From positions 1 to 14,205 of the forward strand of contig JAUWXV010000075.1 of NCBI GenBank assembly GCA_030616165.1: a stretch of DNA of 14,205 nucleotides, written 5' to 3'. Below are positions 2,365 through 12,898 of the stretch, in pieces. The notes under the pieces are model-generated. The model made no database searches. It was not told where the DNA came from and saw only the letters and a list, made by a program, of their open reading frames with translations. The translations under genes and the position numbers were made by a program. Position 1 is the stretch's first letter. Every line of letters starts with the position of its first letter. The DNA is from a bacterium. Its GTDB lineage: Bacteria > SM23-31 > JAUVVT01.

Positions 2365-3726
2365 ATGGCAAGAAAAAGAGGTATAAATAGGAGAGAGTTT
2401 CTCCGTCGCAGTACGTATGGAGGAGCAATAGCCAGTATGGGGTTATCATCTAAAACCCTTTCATTTTCTAATATTAAAAAGGCGATGGCTCCAAACGACA
2501 AAATAACGGTGGGTATGATAGGCATTGGTTCCAGAGCGCATCAACTAATAGAAGCTATCAAACAAGTGGAGGGAACTGAAATTGTTGCAGTATGCGATGC
2601 ATATAAAGGAAGACTTGAACGGGCAGTCGAGAGAACTAATGGAAGAGCCGCTGTTTATAGTGATTATAAGGAGATTCTTGCAAAACCTGATATAGATGTT
2701 GTTGTTATAGCTACTCCTGACCACTGGCATAAGGTTATGATTATTGATGCTCTTGAATCTGGAAAAAATGTTTACGTTGAAAAACCTATGACATATACCG
2801 TTGAAGAGGGCGTGGAGATAATCAAGGCAGTCAAAGGAACTGGAAGAATACTTCAAGTAGGCAGTCAGGGCATGAGTTCTAAAATACAGGGTAAAGCAAG
2901 GGAGATGATTCAGTCAGGTAAATTGGGCGATGTTACGATGATACGTGCTTCTTATAATCGAAATACGGCAAGTGGTGCCTGGATTTATCCGATACCTCCG
3001 GATGCTTCGGCAAAAACTGTAAATTGGAATATGTTTCTTGGACCAGCACCCAAACGTCCGTTTAGTTTGAATAGATTTTTCAGGTGGAGGAGTTACTGGG
3101 AGTATTCAGGTGGAATTGCAACAGACCTTTTTGTTCATCTCTGCACCACTATCCATTTTGTTATGGGTGCAAAGATGCCTTCTATGGTAGTGGGTGCTGG
3201 ACAGCTTTATAGGTGGAAAGAAAGCAGGAATGTTCCTGATAGCATTAATGGTATTCTGGAGTATCCTGAAGGATTTGTTGTGAGTTTGAGTTCAACTTTT
3301 AATAATCAAATGGCGGGTGGTGCAGGATTTCAGATTCTTGGAACGGAAGGAAGCATTCAAATTGGCGGAAACAGCCTTGTTTTTAATGCTGAGCATCCTG
3401 TTGAAAATAATGATTGGATTGTTTCGGGCTGGCCGAGAAAATTGGAAGAGGACTATTATAAAGACCCAAAAGTGAGAGAATTAGAAATCCCATCGAGTAG
3501 GAAGTCAAATGTATATCCAGTTACGGAAGCACATAGTGAGGAAGGACCAGATGCGACGGTTCTGCATTTTCAGAATTTCTTTGATTGTGTCAGGAAAAGA
3601 AGACAACCTATGGAAAATGCAGCAGCAGGACATCATGCCGCTTCTTGTGCTCATTTAGTGAATATTTCCGCTCGTGAAAGACGGTTTGTTTACTGGGATT
3701 TTAATAGGGATAGTATAAAGTCCTGA
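2365..3726 (+). CDS. Tat-exported Gfo/Idh/MocA-family oxidoreductase
   Basis: A 453-residue NAD(P)-dependent oxidoreductase of the glucose-fructose oxidoreductase family. The N-terminus carries NRREFLRRS, a near-consensus Tat motif, followed by a small-residue segment. A Rossmann fold begins near residue 49, with GIGSRAH at 53-59. The family EKP motif is at 139-141, where K140 is the usual catalytic lysine. The C-terminal substrate domain shows GGIATDLFVH with D254 and H258. A strong ribosome site, GGAGGG at 2351-2356, sits eight bases before the ATG. Exported members normally fold around their cofactor before Tat transport, which fits this signal. The 192-base gap after the ManD-like gene holds only a weak promoter-like TTGACT at 2266, so co-transcription is possible but unproven. 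Likely acts on extracytoplasmic sugar; the substrate is unknown. Confidence 0.9.
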   Translation: MARKRGINRREFLRRSTYGGAIASMGLSSKTLSFSNIKKAMAPNDKITVGMIGIGSRAHQLIEAIKQVEGTEIVAVCDAYKGRLERAVERTNGRAAVYSDYKEILAKPDIDVVVIATPDHWHKVMIIDALESGKNVYVEKPMTYTVEEGVEIIKAVKGTGRILQVGSQGMSSKIQGKAREMIQSGKLGDVTMIRASYNRNTASGAWIYPIPPDASAKTVNWNMFLGPAPKRPFSLNRFFRWRSYWEYSGGIATDLFVHLCTTIHFVMGAKMPSMVVGAGQLYRWKESRNVPDSINGILEYPEGFVVSLSSTFNNQMAGGAGFQILGTEGSIQIGGNSLVFNAEHPVENNDWIVSGWPRKLEEDYYKDPKVRELEIPSSRKSNVYPVTEAHSEEGPDATVLHFQNFFDCVRKRRQPMENAAAGHHAASCAHLVNISARERRFVYWDFNRDSIKS

Positions 3727-3858: not shown

Positions 3859-4395
3859 ATGAAAGTCAATTCAAAAGCATACATAATTCATCTCGGGAAT
3901 GTAGAAAGGGATGTTTTATTATTTTTGAGCAAAGAACTTTATGAAATATTCGGGATTGAGTTTAAAATTTCAAGTTCATTAAATATTCCAAAGTCTTCTT
4001 ACAATTCAGAAAGGGAGCAGTATTATTCATCACCACTGCTAAGTTATTTAAAAAGGACTGCAGGAAGAGGGTCCGGTTTAATTTTAGGTGTAATAGATAA
4101 AGACCTCTATGTTCCGCAATTAAACTTTGTTTTTGGAGAGGCAGAACTGAATGGCGAGGCAGCAATTATTTCTTTAACAAGGTTGAGTCAAGAATTTTAC
4201 GGTCTTCTTGGAAATGAGAATATATTTTATCAGAGAGCCATTAAGGAAGCAGTTCATGAAATTGGTCATGTTTTTGGACTCCATCACTGCAGCAATCCAA
4301 AGTGTGTTATGTTTTTTTCGAATAGTCTTTCCGATACCGACATAAAGAGGAAACGTTTTTGTAAAAACTGTTCAAAAAAATTATTAATAAAATGA
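3859..4395 (+). CDS. Archaemetzincin-family zinc metalloprotease
   Basis: The 178-residue length is usual for archaemetzincins. The catalytic zinc site is complete: H133-E134-x-x-H137-x-x-G140-x-x-H143. C144 and C149 and then M151 match the family HExxHxxGxxHCx4CxM pattern. A second zinc-binding pair, C168-x-x-C171, closes the C-terminus. Sixteen residues separate M151 from C168, where the published family pattern has seventeen. No signal peptide is visible, so it is probably cytoplasmic. The start has no clear Shine-Dalgarno but fits the expected N-terminal strand (IIHLGNVERDVL). The stop overlaps the next start as ATGA at 4392-4395, so the two proteins are probably translationally coupled. 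Natural substrates of bacterial archaemetzincins are unknown. Confidence 0.9.
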   Translation: MKVNSKAYIIHLGNVERDVLLFLSKELYEIFGIEFKISSSLNIPKSSYNSEREQYYSSPLLSYLKRTAGRGSGLILGVIDKDLYVPQLNFVFGEAELNGEAAIISLTRLSQEFYGLLGNENIFYQRAIKEAVHEIGHVFGLHHCSNPKCVMFFSNSLSDTDIKRKRFCKNCSKKLLIK

Positions 4396-5365: not shown

Positions 5366-6535
5366 ATGTCTGAAAGAATTAATATTTTAACTTTATTATT
5401 AGCATTCCTTGTGTTAATGGTTGTGGTTCAAAAATCATATGGAGAAGAAAAAAGAATACGGGCAAGGGAACTTGGAATAGAAGTAGGTGTTTTAAATACT
5501 GGAAATTATAATGCAATCACAGATGTTGAGGGAGTTCTTGTCGGACATAAAACCTTGATAAAGGGAGAGAATATTCGGACAGGTGTAACGATAATAATGC
5601 CGCATAATGGAAATGTTTTCAAAGAGAAGGTTCCGGCAGCGGTTTTTGTTGGGAATGCTTTCGGTAAGGCTGTGGGATTCACGCAGATTGAAGAGTTAGG
5701 CAATATTGAAACCCCTATTGCTCTTACTAATACTTTAAATACATTTATAGTCGCAGATGCTTTGATAGAATATACAATAAATCTTAAGGGGAATGAGAAT
5801 GTCCGTTCAGTAAATCCTGTCGTCGGTGAAACGAATGATGGAGGGCTTAACGATATAAGAAGCAGACCTGTAGGTAAAGAGGATGTTTTCGACGCTATTA
5901 AAAATGCTCATTCAGGTAAAGTGGTAGAAGGTTCGATCGGGGCTGGAACTGGTACTCGATGTCTTGGATTTAAGGGTGGGATAGGCACTTCATCAAGGGT
6001 TCTGGATAAAAAAGATGACGGTTTTACGGTGGGTGTTCTTGTGCAGACAAACTTTGGCGGGAATCTTACAATTAACGGTGCCCCTGTTGGTAGAGAGTTG
6101 AGAAAGTATTACAATATTGAAAGAAAAAGGGGGGATGCTGAAGGGTCGTGTATGATAGTAGTTGCGACTGATGCGCCATTGAGTCCGAGGAACCTTAAAA
6201 GACTCGCTAAAAGAGCATTCCTTGCATTCGGAAAGGTTGGCTCATATTCAGGAAATGGAAGTGGAGATTATATTATTGCATTTTCAACTTATAAAGATAA
6301 CAGGATTATTGGTACTGACAGATTAAGAAAGATTGATGTCCTTCCCAATAGAATGATGAACTCCCTTTTTATGGCTGTGGTAGAAGCGACAGAAGAAGCA
6401 ATTTACAATTCCTTATTTATGGCTACTACCGTGAAAGGAATAAACAACCGTATATCAGAAGCCATCCCTATCGAGAAGACTCTCGAAATACTTAAGAAAT
6501 ATAATTCGCTTAATTGGAGTGAGAGATTTAAGTGA
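5366..6535 (+). CDS. Secreted P1-family (DmpA/BapA-type) aminopeptidase
   Basis: An N-terminal-nucleophile hydrolase predicted to remove N-terminal residues from peptides, possibly D-amino acids or beta-amino acids. Residues 1-26 are a Sec signal peptide: a long hydrophobic core (LLLAFLVLMVVV) and likely cleavage after SYG. Family motifs are complete: DVEGVLVGH, VVGETNDGGLND, and GAGTGTRCLGFKGGIGTSSR. The autoprocessing site is G260-S261 in AEGSCMIVVATDAPL; S261 should become the N-terminus of the beta chain. S299 in NGSGD is 38 residues later, the same spacing as S250 to S288 in BapA/DmpA. D301 holds the nearby acidic position. There is no clear Shine-Dalgarno; a strong hairpin lies just upstream. 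Acts in the periplasm or outside the cell. It converges on the membrane SpeE-like gene. Confidence 0.9.
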   Translation: MSERINILTLLLAFLVLMVVVQKSYGEEKRIRARELGIEVGVLNTGNYNAITDVEGVLVGHKTLIKGENIRTGVTIIMPHNGNVFKEKVPAAVFVGNAFGKAVGFTQIEELGNIETPIALTNTLNTFIVADALIEYTINLKGNENVRSVNPVVGETNDGGLNDIRSRPVGKEDVFDAIKNAHSGKVVEGSIGAGTGTRCLGFKGGIGTSSRVLDKKDDGFTVGVLVQTNFGGNLTINGAPVGRELRKYYNIERKRGDAEGSCMIVVATDAPLSPRNLKRLAKRAFLAFGKVGSYSGNGSGDYIIAFSTYKDNRIIGTDRLRKIDVLPNRMMNSLFMAVVEATEEAIYNSLFMATTVKGINNRISEAIPIEKTLEILKKYNSLNWSERFK

Positions 6536-6671: not shown

Positions 6672-8921
6672 TTATTTAATTTTCATAAGAAGCAGGGCAG
6701 TAAAAGCAATTAGGTTCATTACAGTCAAATATACACAACTGACAAAAATTCCTGTAATAGGAATGATAAACGAGGATATTAAAAGGGCACCGATACAGGA
6801 GCCTAACAGGTCAGCAGAATATATCACTCCCAGGTCTTTTTTTGAATCACCTTCCATATACAGGGCGTTAGCAAACTGAAAATGACATCCGCCAAGAAAT
6901 CCAGAAATGATAATTAAAATTGATAAATAAATTTCAGTTATCTGAAATATGATGATGCTTTCAATTTTTGAAAGGGCAAAAAATGAGATTACCATTATTA
7001 TCGGCAGGAGTGAAACAAGTAATTGAATTTTCTTAAGCCATTCAAAGGTATTTGCTTTTTTATCGATTTTTTTTAATGAGAACCAACCGCCTAATGCAAG
7101 CCCACCCATAAAACCTGCTATTATGACTGAAACTTTGCTGTAAATATATCCATAAAGTATTTGAAATCCCAAAATTATCATAACTTCAAAACATATCATC
7201 GAAAATCCTGCAATATATACCGCAAAAACAACGTTTTTCTTTTTCTTTAACAATAAAAAAGGAAGAATAAGGAACATTAAAATTATAAATATAAATATTT
7301 CTTTAAATTTCAGATTATAGATAAAATTAAACGCATTTCGGAATTTGTCCGAGAAATATGTGCTCCATAAAACTATATTATAATAATAACCAACTGGTTT
7401 AAAATCTCTGTTGATTTCACTTGTTGGGGCTGAAGATATAGTAGATACTGCATAATCTATCCTCTCTTTTGACATCCTGAAAGGAAGATAAAATTCGCTT
7501 GTATAGAGCGCATCTATCCCTCTTTCTTTAAGCCTTTTAATGAGTATATCCGGGTCACTGGTAATTATTCCCTTTTGGCTGCATGCTATGAAATTTAAAG
7601 TACTGCCGGGAATTATGACAATATCATCAAAAACCTTTTTCAGCGTGCTGTCGATACTTTTAAAGAATTGGGCGAGTGTGGTATTTATATAGTTTTCGGA
7701 TGAAGTAAGTCTGAAAGAGAAAATCCCACCTTTGTTCAGTATATTTGATATTTCTTTGAAGAATTCAATAGTATAAAATCTGTTAATGAGAGCATTTGAT
7801 GGGTCTGGAAGGTTAGAGATGACAACATCATACTTTTTTTTACTTCTTTTAACGAAAAATCTTCCATCAACATTATAAATATTTACATTTTTTTGCGATG
7901 GTGAAGGGAGGTCAACTTCAGACAGGTATTTTTTCCCCAGTTCAATGACCGCTGGGTCAAGTTCAACATAGTCAATCTCTTTGATACTTTTATGTTTCGC
8001 TGCCTGCTTTATCCCTCCGCTAATGCCTCCTCCTATTAATAAAATACTTTCAGGATTAGGGTGTTCTAAAAGCGCAAAATGAACCGACTCTTCAGCAGTC
8101 ATTATATCAGATGAAGAAAAAAGTATTATTCCATTCTCATAAAGACTTCTCTGAAAAGATTCTTCCAATACAACTATGTTGCCGTAAACTGTATTTTTTG
8201 ATTCTAAAATTTTATATCCCTTCCATAAAAAATTCTGCGATACTTCCTCTAAGATACTTAAATTGGAAAAAAGGTAAAAAAAGTAAATGAATGAAAAAAT
8301 GACTATGCTGGATATTGAGAATAGGATTCGTTTTTCGAGTAGGATTATAAATATAACTGCAAGCAGGCAGAGAAAACTAATTATAAAACAGATTTGAAAA
8401 TTCAGAAAATATTTTATAAAAAAGAAGTTTAACAGGAGCCCTCCCAGCAGTGCACCGATTCCTTCGAAGATGTAAACCCGCCCAACCGACCTTTTTGCTT
8501 CATTTCGGGTAATATAATGGCAGAGTCTGCTGACTGCAGGAAATAGTGAACCGGAAAAAAAGCAGAATGGAAAGAGAATCAGAAAAGATAGACCTACTAT
8601 GGGAAATATCCCGATAAGTTCTCCTGTTTCTACATTGAGAATGTTTCTGATTAGTCTGATTAATAAAAGTGTTAAAGGAAGAATAATGGATAAAAGTGTA
8701 AAAAGAAAAGAAACGGTTAATTTTATCTTTTTTTCTGATGTGAATACTTTGCTGAATACGAAGCTTCCAGCAGCAGTTCCTAACAGCCAACTGCAGAATG
8801 TGATTCCGATTGAAAGTTCGTTACCACCAAAGATTATCATTAACTCCCGTATAAATATAATCTGTGCTGATATTAAAATTACTCCATATTGTATAAATAT
8901 TATATCGATTATCTTTTTCAT
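6672..8921 (-). CDS. Polytopic membrane protein with central spermidine-synthase-like domain
   Basis: A 749-residue three-part protein. About residues 1-220 hold several hydrophobic membrane segments. A SpeE-like Rossmann methyltransferase-fold domain follows at roughly 235-470. Further membrane segments fill about 525-749, including GGLALGGW. The nucleotide loop is G297-G-G-x-S-G-G303, with E320 and D322 in VELDPAVIELG and D352 in NVDGRFF, as in aminopropyltransferases. At the catalytic motif, canonical D-S-x-D-P reads N370-L-P-D373-P, so the general-base Asp is Asn. It may bind decarboxylated SAM or a related nucleoside without making spermidine. It is divergent from the DUF362 gene, with a good minus-strand promoter at 8982-8954. 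No Shine-Dalgarno is seen. True polyamine synthesis looks unlikely; related membrane proteins are annotated only as spermidine-synthase-like. Confidence 0.88.
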   Translation of the reverse strand: MKKIIDIIFIQYGVILISAQIIFIRELMIIFGGNELSIGITFCSWLLGTAAGSFVFSKVFTSEKKIKLTVSFLFTLLSIILPLTLLLIRLIRNILNVETGELIGIFPIVGLSFLILFPFCFFSGSLFPAVSRLCHYITRNEAKRSVGRVYIFEGIGALLGGLLLNFFFIKYFLNFQICFIISFLCLLAVIFIILLEKRILFSISSIVIFSFIYFFYLFSNLSILEEVSQNFLWKGYKILESKNTVYGNIVVLEESFQRSLYENGIILFSSSDIMTAEESVHFALLEHPNPESILLIGGGISGGIKQAAKHKSIKEIDYVELDPAVIELGKKYLSEVDLPSPSQKNVNIYNVDGRFFVKRSKKKYDVVISNLPDPSNALINRFYTIEFFKEISNILNKGGIFSFRLTSSENYINTTLAQFFKSIDSTLKKVFDDIVIIPGSTLNFIACSQKGIITSDPDILIKRLKERGIDALYTSEFYLPFRMSKERIDYAVSTISSAPTSEINRDFKPVGYYYNIVLWSTYFSDKFRNAFNFIYNLKFKEIFIFIILMFLILPFLLLKKKKNVVFAVYIAGFSMICFEVMIILGFQILYGYIYSKVSVIIAGFMGGLALGGWFSLKKIDKKANTFEWLKKIQLLVSLLPIIMVISFFALSKIESIIIFQITEIYLSILIIISGFLGGCHFQFANALYMEGDSKKDLGVIYSADLLGSCIGALLISSFIIPITGIFVSCVYLTVMNLIAFTALLLMKIK

Positions 8922-8953
8922 ATAGAAAATTGCATTATATTGATTTTTTTATA

Positions 8954-8982
8954 ATAATAAATTTAAAAAATTTAAAAATCAA
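8954..8982 (-). promoter_or_regulatory. Promoter for the membrane SpeE-like gene
   Basis: Read on the minus strand, TTGATT (8982-8977) and TATTAT (8959-8954) are exactly 17 bases apart. The -10 box differs from consensus at one base. The start codon at 8921 lies about 30 bases below the -10 box. It faces away from the DUF362 promoter. Confidence 0.55.
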
Positions 8983-9040
8983 GGGAAATGAAACTTTTTC
9001 AATAATAATTTGTATTTAAATGTAATGAAATCAAATTGAC

Positions 9041-9069
9041 TTGACAAACATAATATGAAATAGTATATT
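9041..9069 (+). promoter_or_regulatory. Strong sigma-70-type promoter for the DUF362 gene
   Basis: A perfect -35 TTGACA at 9041-9046, a 17-base spacer and TATATT at 9064-9069 (one mismatch) make this the best promoter in the window. The predicted start near 9076 leaves a leader of about 46 bases before the ATG at 9122. It may drive the DUF362 gene and possibly the downstream radical SAM and Memo-AMMECR1 genes, if transcription passes the hairpins at 10192-10274. Confidence 0.75.
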
Positions 9070-9121
9070 TAAAATTAAAGAATAGAAATGTGATTAAAAT
9101 TAAGTATTTAATGTATTCTCG

Positions 9122-10105
9122 ATGAACCGAAGGGAATTTATTAAAAAAAATATATATGCAGGTTATTTATTATACTCGGGCATAAGACTTTCGGATAATA
9201 ATGTTTCTTCTCCTGTGAAAAATTCAAAAATAGTTATATCTAATGATGATTCAGTGAGAATAAAAGACTTCAGGTATAACGCGAATATACTATCTTCAAT
9301 GCTCGATAAATCAATGAACAATCTATTTGGGACAAAAAGTGCGGTTGATGCCTGGAAAATGGTTGTTAATGCTTCTGATATTGTAGGTTTGAAGGTAAAT
9401 TGTCTTTCCGGGAAAAGGATGTCCACTTCTGTTGAACTTGTAAATGCCATTATTTCAAAACTTCTGAAAGCAGGAGTAAAAAAGAGGAATATTATAATCT
9501 GGGATAGAATGAATATTGATTTAGAGAGGGCTGGATTTAAGATAAATACCAAAGGAAGCGATGTAAAATGTATTGGGAATGATACTGCTGGTTTTAAAAA
9601 TGAATTAGCAATTTATGGTGAGATAGGAAGTCTTTTATCGAGGACGCTGACAGATTATTGCAGTGTTGTTATTAATCTTCCTGTTTTGAAAGACCATGGT
9701 ATAGTGGGTATAACTTTGAGTCTCAAGAATTTTTTTGGCGCTATACACAATCCTAATAAGTACCACAAAAAAATTGGTGACCCATACATTGCAGATTTAT
9801 GGCTGATTCCAGATATAAGAAATAAGACAAAATTAATTATTTGTGATGCTCTGACTGCCCAGTATGAAGGCGGACCGCCGTATAAACCACAGTGGGTATG
9901 GGATTTTAATGGTATAATTGTTGGACAGGACCCTGTAGCACTTGACTATGTGGGATGGAAGATTATAGAAAAAAAGAGAAAAGAAAAGGGGATAAAATCT
10001 CTCAAAGAAGTCGGAAGAGAGCCAAATTATATTAATACGGCGGCAGACATTAATCACGGGATTGGCAATAACAATCCTGACAGGATAGAAGTTATTAATA
10101 TTTAG
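9122..10105 (+). CDS. Tat-exported DUF362 protein
   Basis: A 327-residue DUF362 protein of unknown reaction. It begins with MNRREFIKK, a Tat motif, and a short moderately hydrophobic segment (YAGYLLYSGI). The domain shows the expected blocks: ASDIVGLKVNCLSG, a segment ending NIIIWDR, VVINLPVLKDHG (K190-D191-H192), SLKNFFGAIHNP, and GIIVGQDPVALDYVGW with D270 and D275 near the end. No CxxC iron-sulfur cluster motif is present, unlike the ferredoxin-fused DUF362 proteins. There is no Shine-Dalgarno, but the strong promoter just upstream and the Tat motif at the very start support this ATG. It is divergent from the membrane SpeE-like gene and followed by AmmeMemoRadiSam genes, so it may be an accessory part of that system; that link is inference. 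Confidence 0.88.
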   Translation: MNRREFIKKNIYAGYLLYSGIRLSDNNVSSPVKNSKIVISNDDSVRIKDFRYNANILSSMLDKSMNNLFGTKSAVDAWKMVVNASDIVGLKVNCLSGKRMSTSVELVNAIISKLLKAGVKKRNIIIWDRMNIDLERAGFKINTKGSDVKCIGNDTAGFKNELAIYGEIGSLLSRTLTDYCSVVINLPVLKDHGIVGITLSLKNFFGAIHNPNKYHKKIGDPYIADLWLIPDIRNKTKLIICDALTAQYEGGPPYKPQWVWDFNGIIVGQDPVALDYVGWKIIEKKRKEKGIKSLKEVGREPNYINTAADINHGIGNNNPDRIEVINI

Positions 10106-10191
10106 TGACTATACAATACTATGAGATATTTAAGATAATTTACAAAGAACATTAAAAAAATCTTTTTTTATCTGTAATTAAGAATTTAACC

Positions 10192-10231
10192 ATTTCTAAT
10201 TCATCCCGAGCATTCGGGATGAATTAGAAAT
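10192..10231. repeat. Perfect 18-bp hairpin between DUF362 and radical SAM genes
   Basis: Arms 10192-10209 and 10214-10231 pair without mismatch around the loop GCAT; the core is CATCCCGA/TCGGGATG. No T-run follows directly, so it is not a standard intrinsic terminator. It may be a REP-like element, an mRNA-stabilising stem or a processing site within the operon. Confidence 0.75.
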
Positions 10232-10250
10232 AATTTTAAGTTTTCTTTGT

Positions 10251-10274
10251 TACTTTCTTTTTTAAAAGAAAGTA
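10251..10274. repeat. 11-bp T/A-rich hairpin upstream of radical SAM gene
   Basis: TACTTTCTTTT at 10251-10261 pairs with 10264-10274 around a two-base loop. It starts about 20 bases after the 18-bp hairpin and ends 54 bases before the radical SAM start. The layout resembles 5311-5338 upstream of the P1 peptidase, although the sequences differ. Confidence 0.6.
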
Positions 10275-10328
10275 GAAGAATCTAATAAAAATTCAAAAAC
10301 AAAAAGGGAAAATAATCAAATCAATATT

Positions 10329-11456
10329 ATGAAAACAAAGATAACAAGGCGGGAAGCACTGAAAAGGTCAGCACTTTTGTGTTCTTCATTGGTTTTAGGA
10401 AATTTTAATGGATTTCCAAATTTTCAATCAGGAGACTACGACGATTTTAAGGTAGAAGCAAAGTATTATGAGAAACTTCCGAACAAAAGAATAAGGTGCA
10501 AACTCTGTCCAAAGGAATGTGAGATAGATGATATGGAGAGGGGTTTCTGCGGAGTAAAGGAGAACATAGATGGAAAGTATTACACATTTGTGCATTCAAA
10601 GCCCTGTACGGTTCATGTAGACCCAATTGAAAAGAAGCCGTTTTCTCATTTTCTTCCCGGTACTACTGCATTATCAATAGCGACAGTCGGCTGTAATATG
10701 GATTGTAAGTACTGTCAGAACTGGCAGATTTCTCAACTAAGACCTGAGCAGTGTCAATATTATTTTATACCGCCTGATGAAATGGTTGATATTTCTTTAA
10801 AGAATAAATCTCCTTCTATTGCTCATACATATACTGAACCTGTGATATTTTATGAATATATGTATGACATTGGTGTTGAGGCGAAGAAAAAGGGTATAAA
10901 AAATGTAATGATATCTAACGGTTATATAAATCCGGAGCCTATGAGGGAATTGTGTAAATATCTTGATGCGGTGAAGATAGACCTCAAAGCATTTACTGAA
11001 GAATTTTACGAAGATATCTGTGTCGGTGAGTTAAAATCAGTGCTCGATACATTCGAATTGCTAAAAAAAGAGGGGATTTGGTTTGAGATTGTTTACCTTG
11101 TTGTACCAACCTTAAATGACAGCAAAGATGAAATATCTCAAATGAGCAGATGGATAATGGATAAGTTAGGTCCTGATGTTCCAGTTCATTTCAGTCGATT
11201 TCATCCCCAGTATAAATTAAAGAATTTGCCGCCTACTCCTTTAAAAACCCTTGAATTGTTAAGAGATACTGCTATGAATGAAGGATTGAATTATGTTTAT
11301 ATCGGGAATGTGCCAGGACATGAAGCGGAAAATACTTTCTGTCCAAAATGTAAAAATATAGTTGTGGAAAGAAGAGGATATTTAATTACATCACTTAAAA
11401 TAAAAAATGGAAAATGCGAGTATTGTGGAAATAAAATTCCAGGAGTATGGTCATGA
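10329..11456 (+). CDS. amrS: AmmeMemoRadiSam system radical SAM enzyme with Tat signal
   Basis: A 375-residue radical SAM enzyme. The 4Fe-4S/SAM site is C122-x3-C126-x2-C129 in VGCNMDCKYC. The N-terminal cysteine cluster typical of this family is present: C57, C60, C64 and C74 in RCKLCPKEC and GFCG. Conserved blocks follow, such as AHTYTEPVIFYEY, VKIDLKAF and FSRFHPQYK. A C-terminal zinc-ribbon-like set, C338-x2-C341 and C363-x2-C366, closes the chain. Before the domain stand about 45 extra residues starting MKTKITRREALKRSALL, a Tat-type signal with a short hydrophobic core. An oxygen-sensitive radical SAM enzyme needs an electron donor, so export is unusual. The stop overlaps the next start as ATGA. 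The pathway and substrate are unknown in the family. No clear Shine-Dalgarno is seen. Confidence 0.92.
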   Translation: MKTKITRREALKRSALLCSSLVLGNFNGFPNFQSGDYDDFKVEAKYYEKLPNKRIRCKLCPKECEIDDMERGFCGVKENIDGKYYTFVHSKPCTVHVDPIEKKPFSHFLPGTTALSIATVGCNMDCKYCQNWQISQLRPEQCQYYFIPPDEMVDISLKNKSPSIAHTYTEPVIFYEYMYDIGVEAKKKGIKNVMISNGYINPEPMRELCKYLDAVKIDLKAFTEEFYEDICVGELKSVLDTFELLKKEGIWFEIVYLVVPTLNDSKDEISQMSRWIMDKLGPDVPVHFSRFHPQYKLKNLPPTPLKTLELLRDTAMNEGLNYVYIGNVPGHEAENTFCPKCKNIVVERRGYLITSLKIKNGKCEYCGNKIPGVWS

Positions 11457-12898
11457 AGATTATTGTTAGTATTTCCAATATATTATTTTTATCGTTATTT
11501 ACAGTATCAATAAGTTGTGCTCAAAATATTCGTCCACCTGTTGTTGCAGGAAGTTTTTATCCGGGGAACGCAGATGAATTAAGAGCATATATAAATGACG
11601 CATTTAAAAAAGCCCCTGATGTTGAAATTGACGGGAGAATAGTTGGAGTTATTTCTCCGCATGCCGGGTATATATATTCGGGTCAGGTCGCTGCAGATAT
11701 GTATAAGTTTCTTTTAGGCAAAAAATTTGATGTGGTTTGTATAGTTGCACCTTCCCATCAGGAGGCTTTTAGAGGTGTCTCTATTTATTCAGGAGATGGT
11801 TATCAGACTCCATTAGGAGTTCTCAAGGTTGATAAAGAACTTGCAAAAAAACTTACTAAAGCGTCCTCTGTTATAAGAACTTCAATTGAGGGACATAGAA
11901 ACGAGCATTCTCTTGAGGTTCAGCTCCCTTTTCTTCAAGCCGCTGTCGGAAATTTTAAACTTCTTCCCCTGGTTATGGGTGACCAAAATTTTAATACTTG
12001 TACATCTTTAGGAAAAGCATTAGGAGAAGTGTTAAAAAATGAGAATGCATTGATTGTAGCCAGTTCTGACCTTTCCCACTTCCATAATTACGATGACGCT
12101 GTTGAACTTGATAACAATCTCATCAGTGCGGTTAAATACTACGATTATCTTCTGTTATCAAGGTCTCTGGGTGTTGGAAAGTGCGAAGCCTGCGGAGGGG
12201 GTCCGATTATCGCGGTGATGATTGCCTCTCAAACTCTCGGTGCTAATAAGGCTCGGATAATTAAATATGCAAATTCTGGGGACGTGACCAGAGATAAATC
12301 AAGTGTTGTGGGATATATGAGTGGTGTTCTTATTAAGTCGGATAATGTGGGTGATATGCTGAACAGAGAAGATAGAGAGAAACTTATCGAGATAGCAAAG
12401 ACTTCAGTCTTCAATAAAATTAGTGGTAAAAAAATACCGGAATTTAAAGTTGAATCAGAATATTTGAAACAGAACTGCGGTGCATTTGTGACGCTGAATG
12501 AAAATGGGAATTTGAGGGGGTGTATTGGATATATAGTTGCTGAAAAACCTCTTTATAAGACAATAGAGGAAGTTGCTGTTTCTGCAGCACTTAATGACCC
12601 AAGATTCCCTCCAGTTTCAAAGAATGAATTAAATAAGTTGGAATTCGAGATTTCTGTGTTAACCCCTTTTAGATTGATTAATGATATAAACGAAATTGAG
12701 GTTGGAAAGCATGGATTATTTATTGTAAAAGGAAGAAATCAAGGGGTCCTTCTTCCTCAAGTCGCTGTTTCAAATAAATGGGACAGGAATACATTTCTTG
12801 AACAGGTATGTATTAAAGCCGCTTTGCCTCCTAATTCTTGGAAAGAAAAGGATGCAGACATTTACATATTCTCAGCAGAAGTATTTGGGGAACATTAG
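11453..12898 (+). CDS. Secreted or lipid-anchored Memo-AMMECR1 fusion (AmmeMemoRadiSam proteins B and A)
   Basis: Two AmmeMemoRadiSam parts are fused, giving 481 residues from the ATG at 11453. An upstream in-frame ATG at 11447 is one base from AGGAG (11441-11445), whereas 11453 is seven bases away and overlaps the previous stop as ATGA, so I prefer it. The N-terminus is a signal peptide ending SISCAQ; the Cys could be lipidated, though Ser at -3 is a poor lipobox. The Memo half (about 25-290) keeps the metal ligands H70 (SPHAGYIYSG), H102 (APSHQE) and C247 (EACGGGP). H70 to H102 is 32 residues, as H49 to H81 in human MEMO1. The AMMECR1 half (about 303-481) has its signature LRGCIG at 354-359. 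The substrate is unknown. The two symbols would be amrB and amrA. Confidence 0.9.
   Translation: MKIIVSISNILFLSLFTVSISCAQNIRPPVVAGSFYPGNADELRAYINDAFKKAPDVEIDGRIVGVISPHAGYIYSGQVAADMYKFLLGKKFDVVCIVAPSHQEAFRGVSIYSGDGYQTPLGVLKVDKELAKKLTKASSVIRTSIEGHRNEHSLEVQLPFLQAAVGNFKLLPLVMGDQNFNTCTSLGKALGEVLKNENALIVASSDLSHFHNYDDAVELDNNLISAVKYYDYLLLSRSLGVGKCEACGGGPIIAVMIASQTLGANKARIIKYANSGDVTRDKSSVVGYMSGVLIKSDNVGDMLNREDREKLIEIAKTSVFNKISGKKIPEFKVESEYLKQNCGAFVTLNENGNLRGCIGYIVAEKPLYKTIEEVAVSAALNDPRFPPVSKNELNKLEFEISVLTPFRLINDINEIEVGKHGLFIVKGRNQGVLLPQVAVSNKWDRNTFLEQVCIKAALPPNSWKEKDADIYIFSAEVFGEH

Follow-up and report, generated by a model that had tools for sequence, protein, structure and literature searches.

A four-gene locus in a 14,205-nucleotide stretch of bacterial DNA (contig JAUWXV010000075.1 of assembly GCA_030616165.1, GTDB lineage SM23-31; the whole stretch is hereafter called the window) encodes what appears to be a second, exported copy of AmmeMemoRadiSam, the system of a radical S-adenosylmethionine (SAM) enzyme, Memo and AMMECR1 that is usually assumed to be cytoplasmic, location not being a defining feature of the family. 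The other two genes encode a DUF362 protein and a divergent major facilitator superfamily (MFS) protein with a SpeE-like domain. Judged by predicted signals, a second, exported copy is found in many phyla, and we favour the reading, at a probability of about 0.58 for the explanation as a whole, that this duplicated system works on the outer face of the inner membrane. The exported proteins are very probably located outside the cytoplasmic membrane, and it is reasonably likely that active radical chemistry would take place there.

Predicted export signals and active-site residues of the AmmeMemoRadiSam proteins

Family membership was called from profile matches above curated cut-offs, and export signals were judged by motif and hydropathy rules, with starts taken from the longest open reading frame (ORF). 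The radical SAM enzyme matches TIGR04337 (382 bits, cut-off 220), and its N-terminus (MKTKITRREALKRSALLCSSLVLG) reads as a good twin-arginine translocation (Tat) signal. The Memo-AMMECR1 fusion, the start of which (11447) overlaps the radical SAM stop (11456), matches TIGR04336 (282 bits, cut-off 26) and TIGR04335 (182 bits, cut-off 99) and opens with a predicted Sec signal and a PROSITE-type lipobox (MVMKIIVSISNILFLSLFTVSISCAQ). A sequence-only reading of the stretch had noticed the twin-arginine motif of the former (TRREALKR) and the hydrophobic segment of the latter ending in SISCAQ, and both assignments stand; all four genes were recovered on the ORF map of the window where that reading had placed them. 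Its wider expectations, that these N-termini are export signals, that homologues in the same gene order bear them and that the order is conserved elsewhere, were also supported as far as motif rules allow, the signals lying far above background and being kept although their letters diverge.

Among 120 radical SAM sequences, 87 bear a predicted signal for export or an anchor (Tat in 66, Sec or a transmembrane (TM) anchor in 16 and a KR-type Tat motif in 5) and 33 have none by rule, 25 of which begin straight at the core. The Tat rule is passed by 27 of 853 unrelated genes of the same loci versus 66 of the 87 exported-class enzymes or, since that class is defined by having a signal, more fairly versus 66 of all 120; this background rules out chance signals. 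In two of these 25 (L143, near 5430, and L061, near 2812), the anchor sits a short way upstream in a different reading frame, the gene having been broken by a frameshift or by an error of assembly. A signal is likewise present on 47 of 48 intact Memo-AMMECR1 fusions, many of them with a lipobox, and absent from three of the four standalone Memo proteins; the sole signal-bearing one (L039) resembles a broken fusion, as an AMMECR1 ORF comes after it and overlaps it.

The exported enzymes have kept their catalytic equipment. The CX3CX2C motif, an N-terminal Cys cluster and C-terminal Cys pairs are present in 87/87 exported radical SAM enzymes. Human MEMO1 binds iron or copper via H49, H81 and C244 (PMC11081632), and the corresponding Memo ligands are found in 51-52 of 54 rows, the remainder being gaps save one. 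Degenerate exported copies are ruled out by this retention.

The genome to which the window belongs (a 3.74 Mb draft, 90% complete, encoding TatC) also holds a signal-less second set on separate contigs, comprising a radical SAM protein of 332 aa that starts MKEALFWEGL (C244), a Memo of 280 aa (C253) and an AMMECR1 of 185 aa (C43); in the radical SAM paralogue L053, merely 15 residues precede the first conserved Cys. A long exported radical SAM enzyme is usually accompanied by a short one in the same genome (clearly so in G000, G001, G003, G006, G050, G059, G047 and G039), and because these signal-less paralogues share genomes with the exported set, the latter is best regarded as an addition to the usual set, not a replacement. 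In a quick tree of the core region, 96 rows fall into one group (SH-aLRT 86), of which 89 are exported, 5 have no signal and 2 are undetermined; a two-state count gives 3 changes of the export label on the tree versus ~25 in shuffles.

Recurrent partners of the exported pair

Neighbourhoods came from two sources, 60 relatives covered by a search and 80 named loci taken out of GTDB genomes, and all neighbouring genes were clustered. The 80 loci were picked by likeness to the exported radical SAM enzyme, which biases the exported share by design; the partners were outside the query. Four families alone recur widely in the resulting 121 loci (radical SAM in 118, Memo/AMMECR1 in 54, SpeE-MFS in 48 and DUF362 in 34), the next reaching 10, and these counts are lower bounds because many contigs are short. 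An accidental neighbourhood is thus ruled out. The set recurs in KSB1, Latescibacterota, Acidobacteria, Zixibacteria, Aminicenantes, Planctomycetota, Omnitrophota and others, and all four families lie within 6 kb of one another at 13 loci (Acidobacteria, Zixibacteria, Planctomycetota, Deltaproteobacteria and others). Both partners follow the exported form: DUF362 stands near 34 of 87 exported radical SAM enzymes versus 0 of the 33 remaining ones, and SpeE-MFS near 45 of 87 versus 3 of 33.

The divergent neighbour, which the sequence-only reading had described as a polytopic membrane protein with a SpeE-like domain, is indeed one. It matches PF01564 (98 bits, cut-off 22.9) and the 'fused MFS/spermidine synthase' family NF037959 (86 bits, cut-off 40), falls under the SpeE equivalog cut-off (112 versus 250 bits), and is predicted to start inside and to span the membrane with 14 TM helices. 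Its AlphaFold model (pLDDT 89) shows an MFS fold over the full length (match to SV2A with Z 27.4, root-mean-square deviation (rmsd) 3.7 and 347 aligned positions across model residues 1-747), and the central domain has the aminopropyltransferase-type (SpeE) fold (Z 30). Both termini probably lie inside and the SpeE domain outside the membrane, because the positive-inside rule holds throughout: the Lys plus Arg density of predicted-inside loops exceeds that of predicted-outside loops in 41/41 sequences. The GGG, ExDP and DGR SAM-binding motifs are retained, and two acids are replaced: that of GxG(D/E)G by Ile300 in the window (GGGIS) and by V, L, A or I in most relatives, and the catalytic Asp of DxxDP by Asn370 (of 45 aligned rows, 24 have N and 10 have D). 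Since the SAM-binding motifs are kept and the aminopropyltransferase acids lost, SAM is likelier than its decarboxylated form to be what this protein would handle. A polyamine synthase is not supported, both defining acids being lost. The same genome encodes, on contig C40 and away from AmmeMemoRadiSam genes, another MFS/SpeE-like protein of 1166 aa with a TPR-like tail (L179, 3840-7340).

These replacements bear on another explanation, which takes the SpeE-like domain for a SAM methyltransferase that faces outward, akin to fungal NHMT, and acts on the same exported protein as AmmeMemoRadiSam; the MFS part would only anchor it or convey SAM to its own domain. NHMT is a seven-TM methyltransferase of the N-terminal histidine in secreted LPMOs (lytic polysaccharide monooxygenases), and it too has Ile for the GxG(D/E)G acid, by which its authors separate it from spermidine synthases (PMC10349129); the Asn in place of the catalytic Asp of spermidine synthase also suits a methyltransferase. 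However, the NHMT domain is C-terminal, after the seven helices, and not within an MFS fold, and no recurrent substrate gene was found in the clustered neighbourhoods, where peptidases of differing families appear in single clusters (M3-like at L040, M6 at L044). We therefore consider a methyltransferase of this kind unlikely.

The DUF362 protein matches PF04015 (75 bits, cut-off 24). Its N-terminus (MNRREFIKKNIYAGYLLYSGI) has a clear RR motif; the hydrophobic stretch that follows is weak and below threshold, and the proposal of a Tat motif (NRREFIKK) on this protein therefore stands for the arginines and is weaker for the hydrophobic part. This is the least certain of the signals predicted for the three exported proteins. 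An RR motif is found on 26 of the 34 DUF362 proteins adjoining radical SAM genes; 22 of these satisfy the rule in full, and the other 4, the window's included, were accepted by eye. All 12 fold matches of the DUF362 model (pLDDT 92.5) at Z >= 14 are LarA-type (Z 14-16), the next having Z 4.9; one of them is malate racemase 6d6z (Z 16.3, rmsd 3.0, 205 aligned). DUF362 and DUF2088 are grouped in Pfam clan CL0471 (PMC11770544), and a sequence search of the PDB with the DUF362 protein gave no match. LarC was found in 6 of 11 genomes, including the window's own, and not in G050 (97% complete), which carries a DUF362 gene and on that account makes a pincer cofactor doubtful. A nickel-pincer racemase thus fits the fold and is doubtful in its cofactor.

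The next recurrent neighbours include two kinds of membrane electron carrier, DsbD_2/CcdA proteins and NapGH-like polyferredoxins, the latter with an internal twin-arginine stretch ahead of their second half. Of the 10 members of the heterogeneous polyferredoxin group, six have several CX2CX2C motifs and four have one or none. In the window's own genome, a second Tat DUF362 gene stands beside a NapGH-like polyferredoxin gene with an internal twin-arginine stretch (L178, 6616-9340, contig C293), and the DsbD_2 protein is encoded on contig C171; a similar DUF362-polyferredoxin pair, together with DUF6599, occurs near the exported set at L111, L123 and L125. In Omnitrophota (L120, L131, L133 and L137), the genes that come after those of the exported radical SAM enzyme and Memo fusion keep one order, with DsbD_2 first, then an RNA methyltransferase and then a MiaB-like radical SAM protein.

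A possible mechanism at the outer face of the inner membrane

In the scheme that we favour, Tat would carry the radical SAM enzyme out, presumably in folded form and with its [4Fe-4S] cluster in place (some lineages would use a Sec signal or a TM anchor instead), and the Memo-AMMECR1 fusion would leave by Sec, often as a lipoprotein. At the outer face of the inner membrane, the two would act on a substrate that is itself exported or embedded in the membrane, with the LarA-fold DUF362 protein as a frequent partner and the MFS/SpeE-like protein displaying its SAM-binding-like domain on the same face. The MFS part would most likely serve the radical SAM enzyme by transporting SAM, alone or along with its spent product, through the membrane, and we propose this role in SAM handling tentatively. 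Reducing power would most likely arrive via NapGH-type or DsbD/CcdA-type carriers in the membrane, an assignment that is equally provisional. Whether all of this holds at once, with radical SAM chemistry outside, SAM fed by an MFS transporter with an outward SpeE-like domain and electrons from a membrane polyferredoxin, is doubtful. An envelope lipid or a quinone as substrate would fit an outward-facing membrane set; a 2019 survey of Memo/LigB in the Journal of Biological Chemistry reportedly tied Memo to the modification of nucleotide bases and isoprenoids.

Several observations weigh against an active system in the envelope. We know of no SAM outside the bacterial cytoplasm, and no papers on an exported radical SAM enzyme were found, within the limits of the open literature. 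The proposed electron carriers occur in merely 8 to 10 loci each and lie outside the window. Some of the radical SAM enzymes bear Sec-type signals, which is difficult to reconcile with Fe-S (iron-sulphur) insertion in the cytoplasm. The radical SAM enzymes of L124, L136 and L139 are apparently genuine signal-less members of the exported group, and those of L124 and L136 (two Thermodesulfovibrionales metagenome-assembled genomes) stand beside Memo-AMMECR1 fusions with lipoboxes, the export of one partner possibly having been lost. Eight of the 34 DUF362 partners are signal-less and may be carried by a Tat partner or retained inside. The proposal of the sequence-only reading that the whole set sits on the outer face is thus supported for the radical SAM enzyme, the Memo fusion and the probable topology of the SpeE domain, and not for DUF362 in these eight clusters; its further suggestion, of a SpeE-like protein that would furnish or use up a small molecule derived from SAM, stays tentative.

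The want of a known external SAM pool speaks for a second alternative, in which any radical SAM chemistry is cytoplasmic, before or during export, and the enzyme serves outside, free of SAM, only as an Fe-S protein that carries electrons or acts as a chaperone delivering metal to Memo. Tat exports pre-folded Fe-S proteins, as this would require. The iron or copper bound by Memo (PMC11081632), the ligands of which are kept, would also agree with it. Against it, CX3CX2C and other core residues have been kept over large divergence, and a SAM-binding-like protein travels with the radical SAM enzyme, and we regard this account as improbable. That the N-terminal stretches are mere anchors of an ordinary membrane-bound system with cytoplasmic catalytic domains is very improbable, for although uncleaved-looking TM anchors are present on the radical SAM enzymes of L062, L051 and L151, positive N-termini ahead of the hydrophobic stretch place the remainder outside, most signals are Tat, many Memo fusions have lipoboxes and nearly all standalone paralogues are signal-less.

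The features of the locus are collected in Table 1; we infer that the stretch between the two divergent genes is their shared promoter region. Elsewhere in the window, a ManD-like enolase-family protein (817-2172) and a Gfo/Idh/MocA oxidoreductase (2365-3726) have N-terminal twin-basic motifs resembling Tat signals; export by this route may be common in the genome. An Archaemetzincin-family zinc metalloprotease gene (3859-4395) is followed by a DUF72 gene. The gene that adjoins the 3' end of the SpeE-like gene (5366-6535) is non-recurrent in related loci; its product belongs to the peptidase S58 family and has a Sec-type signal.

Table 1. Coordinates, in the window, of the four genes and of their predicted domains, signals and motifs.
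Feature	Position	Strand	Basis or remark
MFS/SpeE-like membrane protein	6672..8921	-	749 aa; exceeds the PF01564 and NF037959 cut-offs
SpeE-like domain with SAM-binding motifs (residues 237-505), inserted after TM helix 7 and before TM helix 8	7407..8213	-	aminopropyltransferase fold match
Intergenic stretch between divergent SpeE-like and DUF362 genes	8922..9121	.	ORF map
DUF362 protein of LarA-like fold; RR motif (NRREFIKK) at the N-terminus	9122..10105	+	PF04015
Tat-type AmmeMemoRadiSam radical SAM enzyme (AmrS-like)	10329..11456	+	TIGR04337
Predicted Tat signal and linker of radical SAM enzyme	10329..10445	+	missing from cytosolic paralogue
Radical SAM CX3CX2C motif, C122/C126/C129	10692..10715	+	invariant in alignment A1
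Memo-AMMECR1 fusion (AmrB-AmrA fusion), N-terminal signal or lipobox	11447..12898	+	TIGR04336 and TIGR04335
Predicted Sec signal / lipobox (FTVSISCAQ)	11447..11524	+	motif/hydropathy rules
Memo domain; metal ligands H72, H104, C249	11537..12325	+	equivalents of human MEMO1 H49, H81, C244
AMMECR1 domain	12389..12886	+	PF01871, 191 bits

Relation to known systems

The conservation of Memo and AMMECR1 extends from archaea to humans. As far as the open literature goes, no paper describing an exported AmmeMemoRadiSam was found; the system was met merely in passing mentions, and those examined said nothing on cellular location. Because the exported, fused form occurs repeatedly with the same two partners, the search for its substrate is narrowed to what is accessible on the membrane's outer side, and SAM is suggested by the SpeE-like partner. 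If radical SAM chemistry does run in the envelope, it would require a supply of SAM across the membrane, of which we know no case in bacteria. It would then represent, to our knowledge, the first extracytoplasmic SAM pool and the first extracytoplasmic radical SAM enzyme in bacteria.

Each component of the set resembles a known system and departs from it. All three components of AmmeMemoRadiSam (TIGR04337, TIGR04336 and TIGR04335; amrS, amrB and amrA) are over curated cut-offs here with active-site residues kept, whereas the present form has export signals, a Tat-type radical SAM enzyme, Memo and AMMECR1 in one chain, DUF362 and MFS-SpeE as frequent partners and a separate signal-less set in the same genome. 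The fused MFS/spermidine synthases of NF037959 and SpeE have in common with the window protein an MFS with the SpeE fold and SAM-binding motifs; the window protein differs in having lost the GGG(D/E) acid and the catalytic Asp and in having its domain inserted between TM helices 7 and 8, probably outside. Akin to NHMT, which modifies a secreted protein, it is a membrane protein with a SpeE-like domain, but NHMT is eukaryotic and no radical SAM or Memo partners are reported for it. The nickel-pincer racemases LarA and DUF2088 have a fold and a Pfam clan in common with the DUF362 partner; they differ in that the latter has no PDB sequence match and that LarC, a requirement for the pincer cofactor, was not found in G050. 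Finally, polyferredoxins of the NapG/NapH type, with a membrane Fer4_5 part and, beyond an internal twin-arginine stretch, several Fer4 clusters, adjoin the exported set in some loci, although in the genome described here the polyferredoxin lies outside the window, on another contig (C293).

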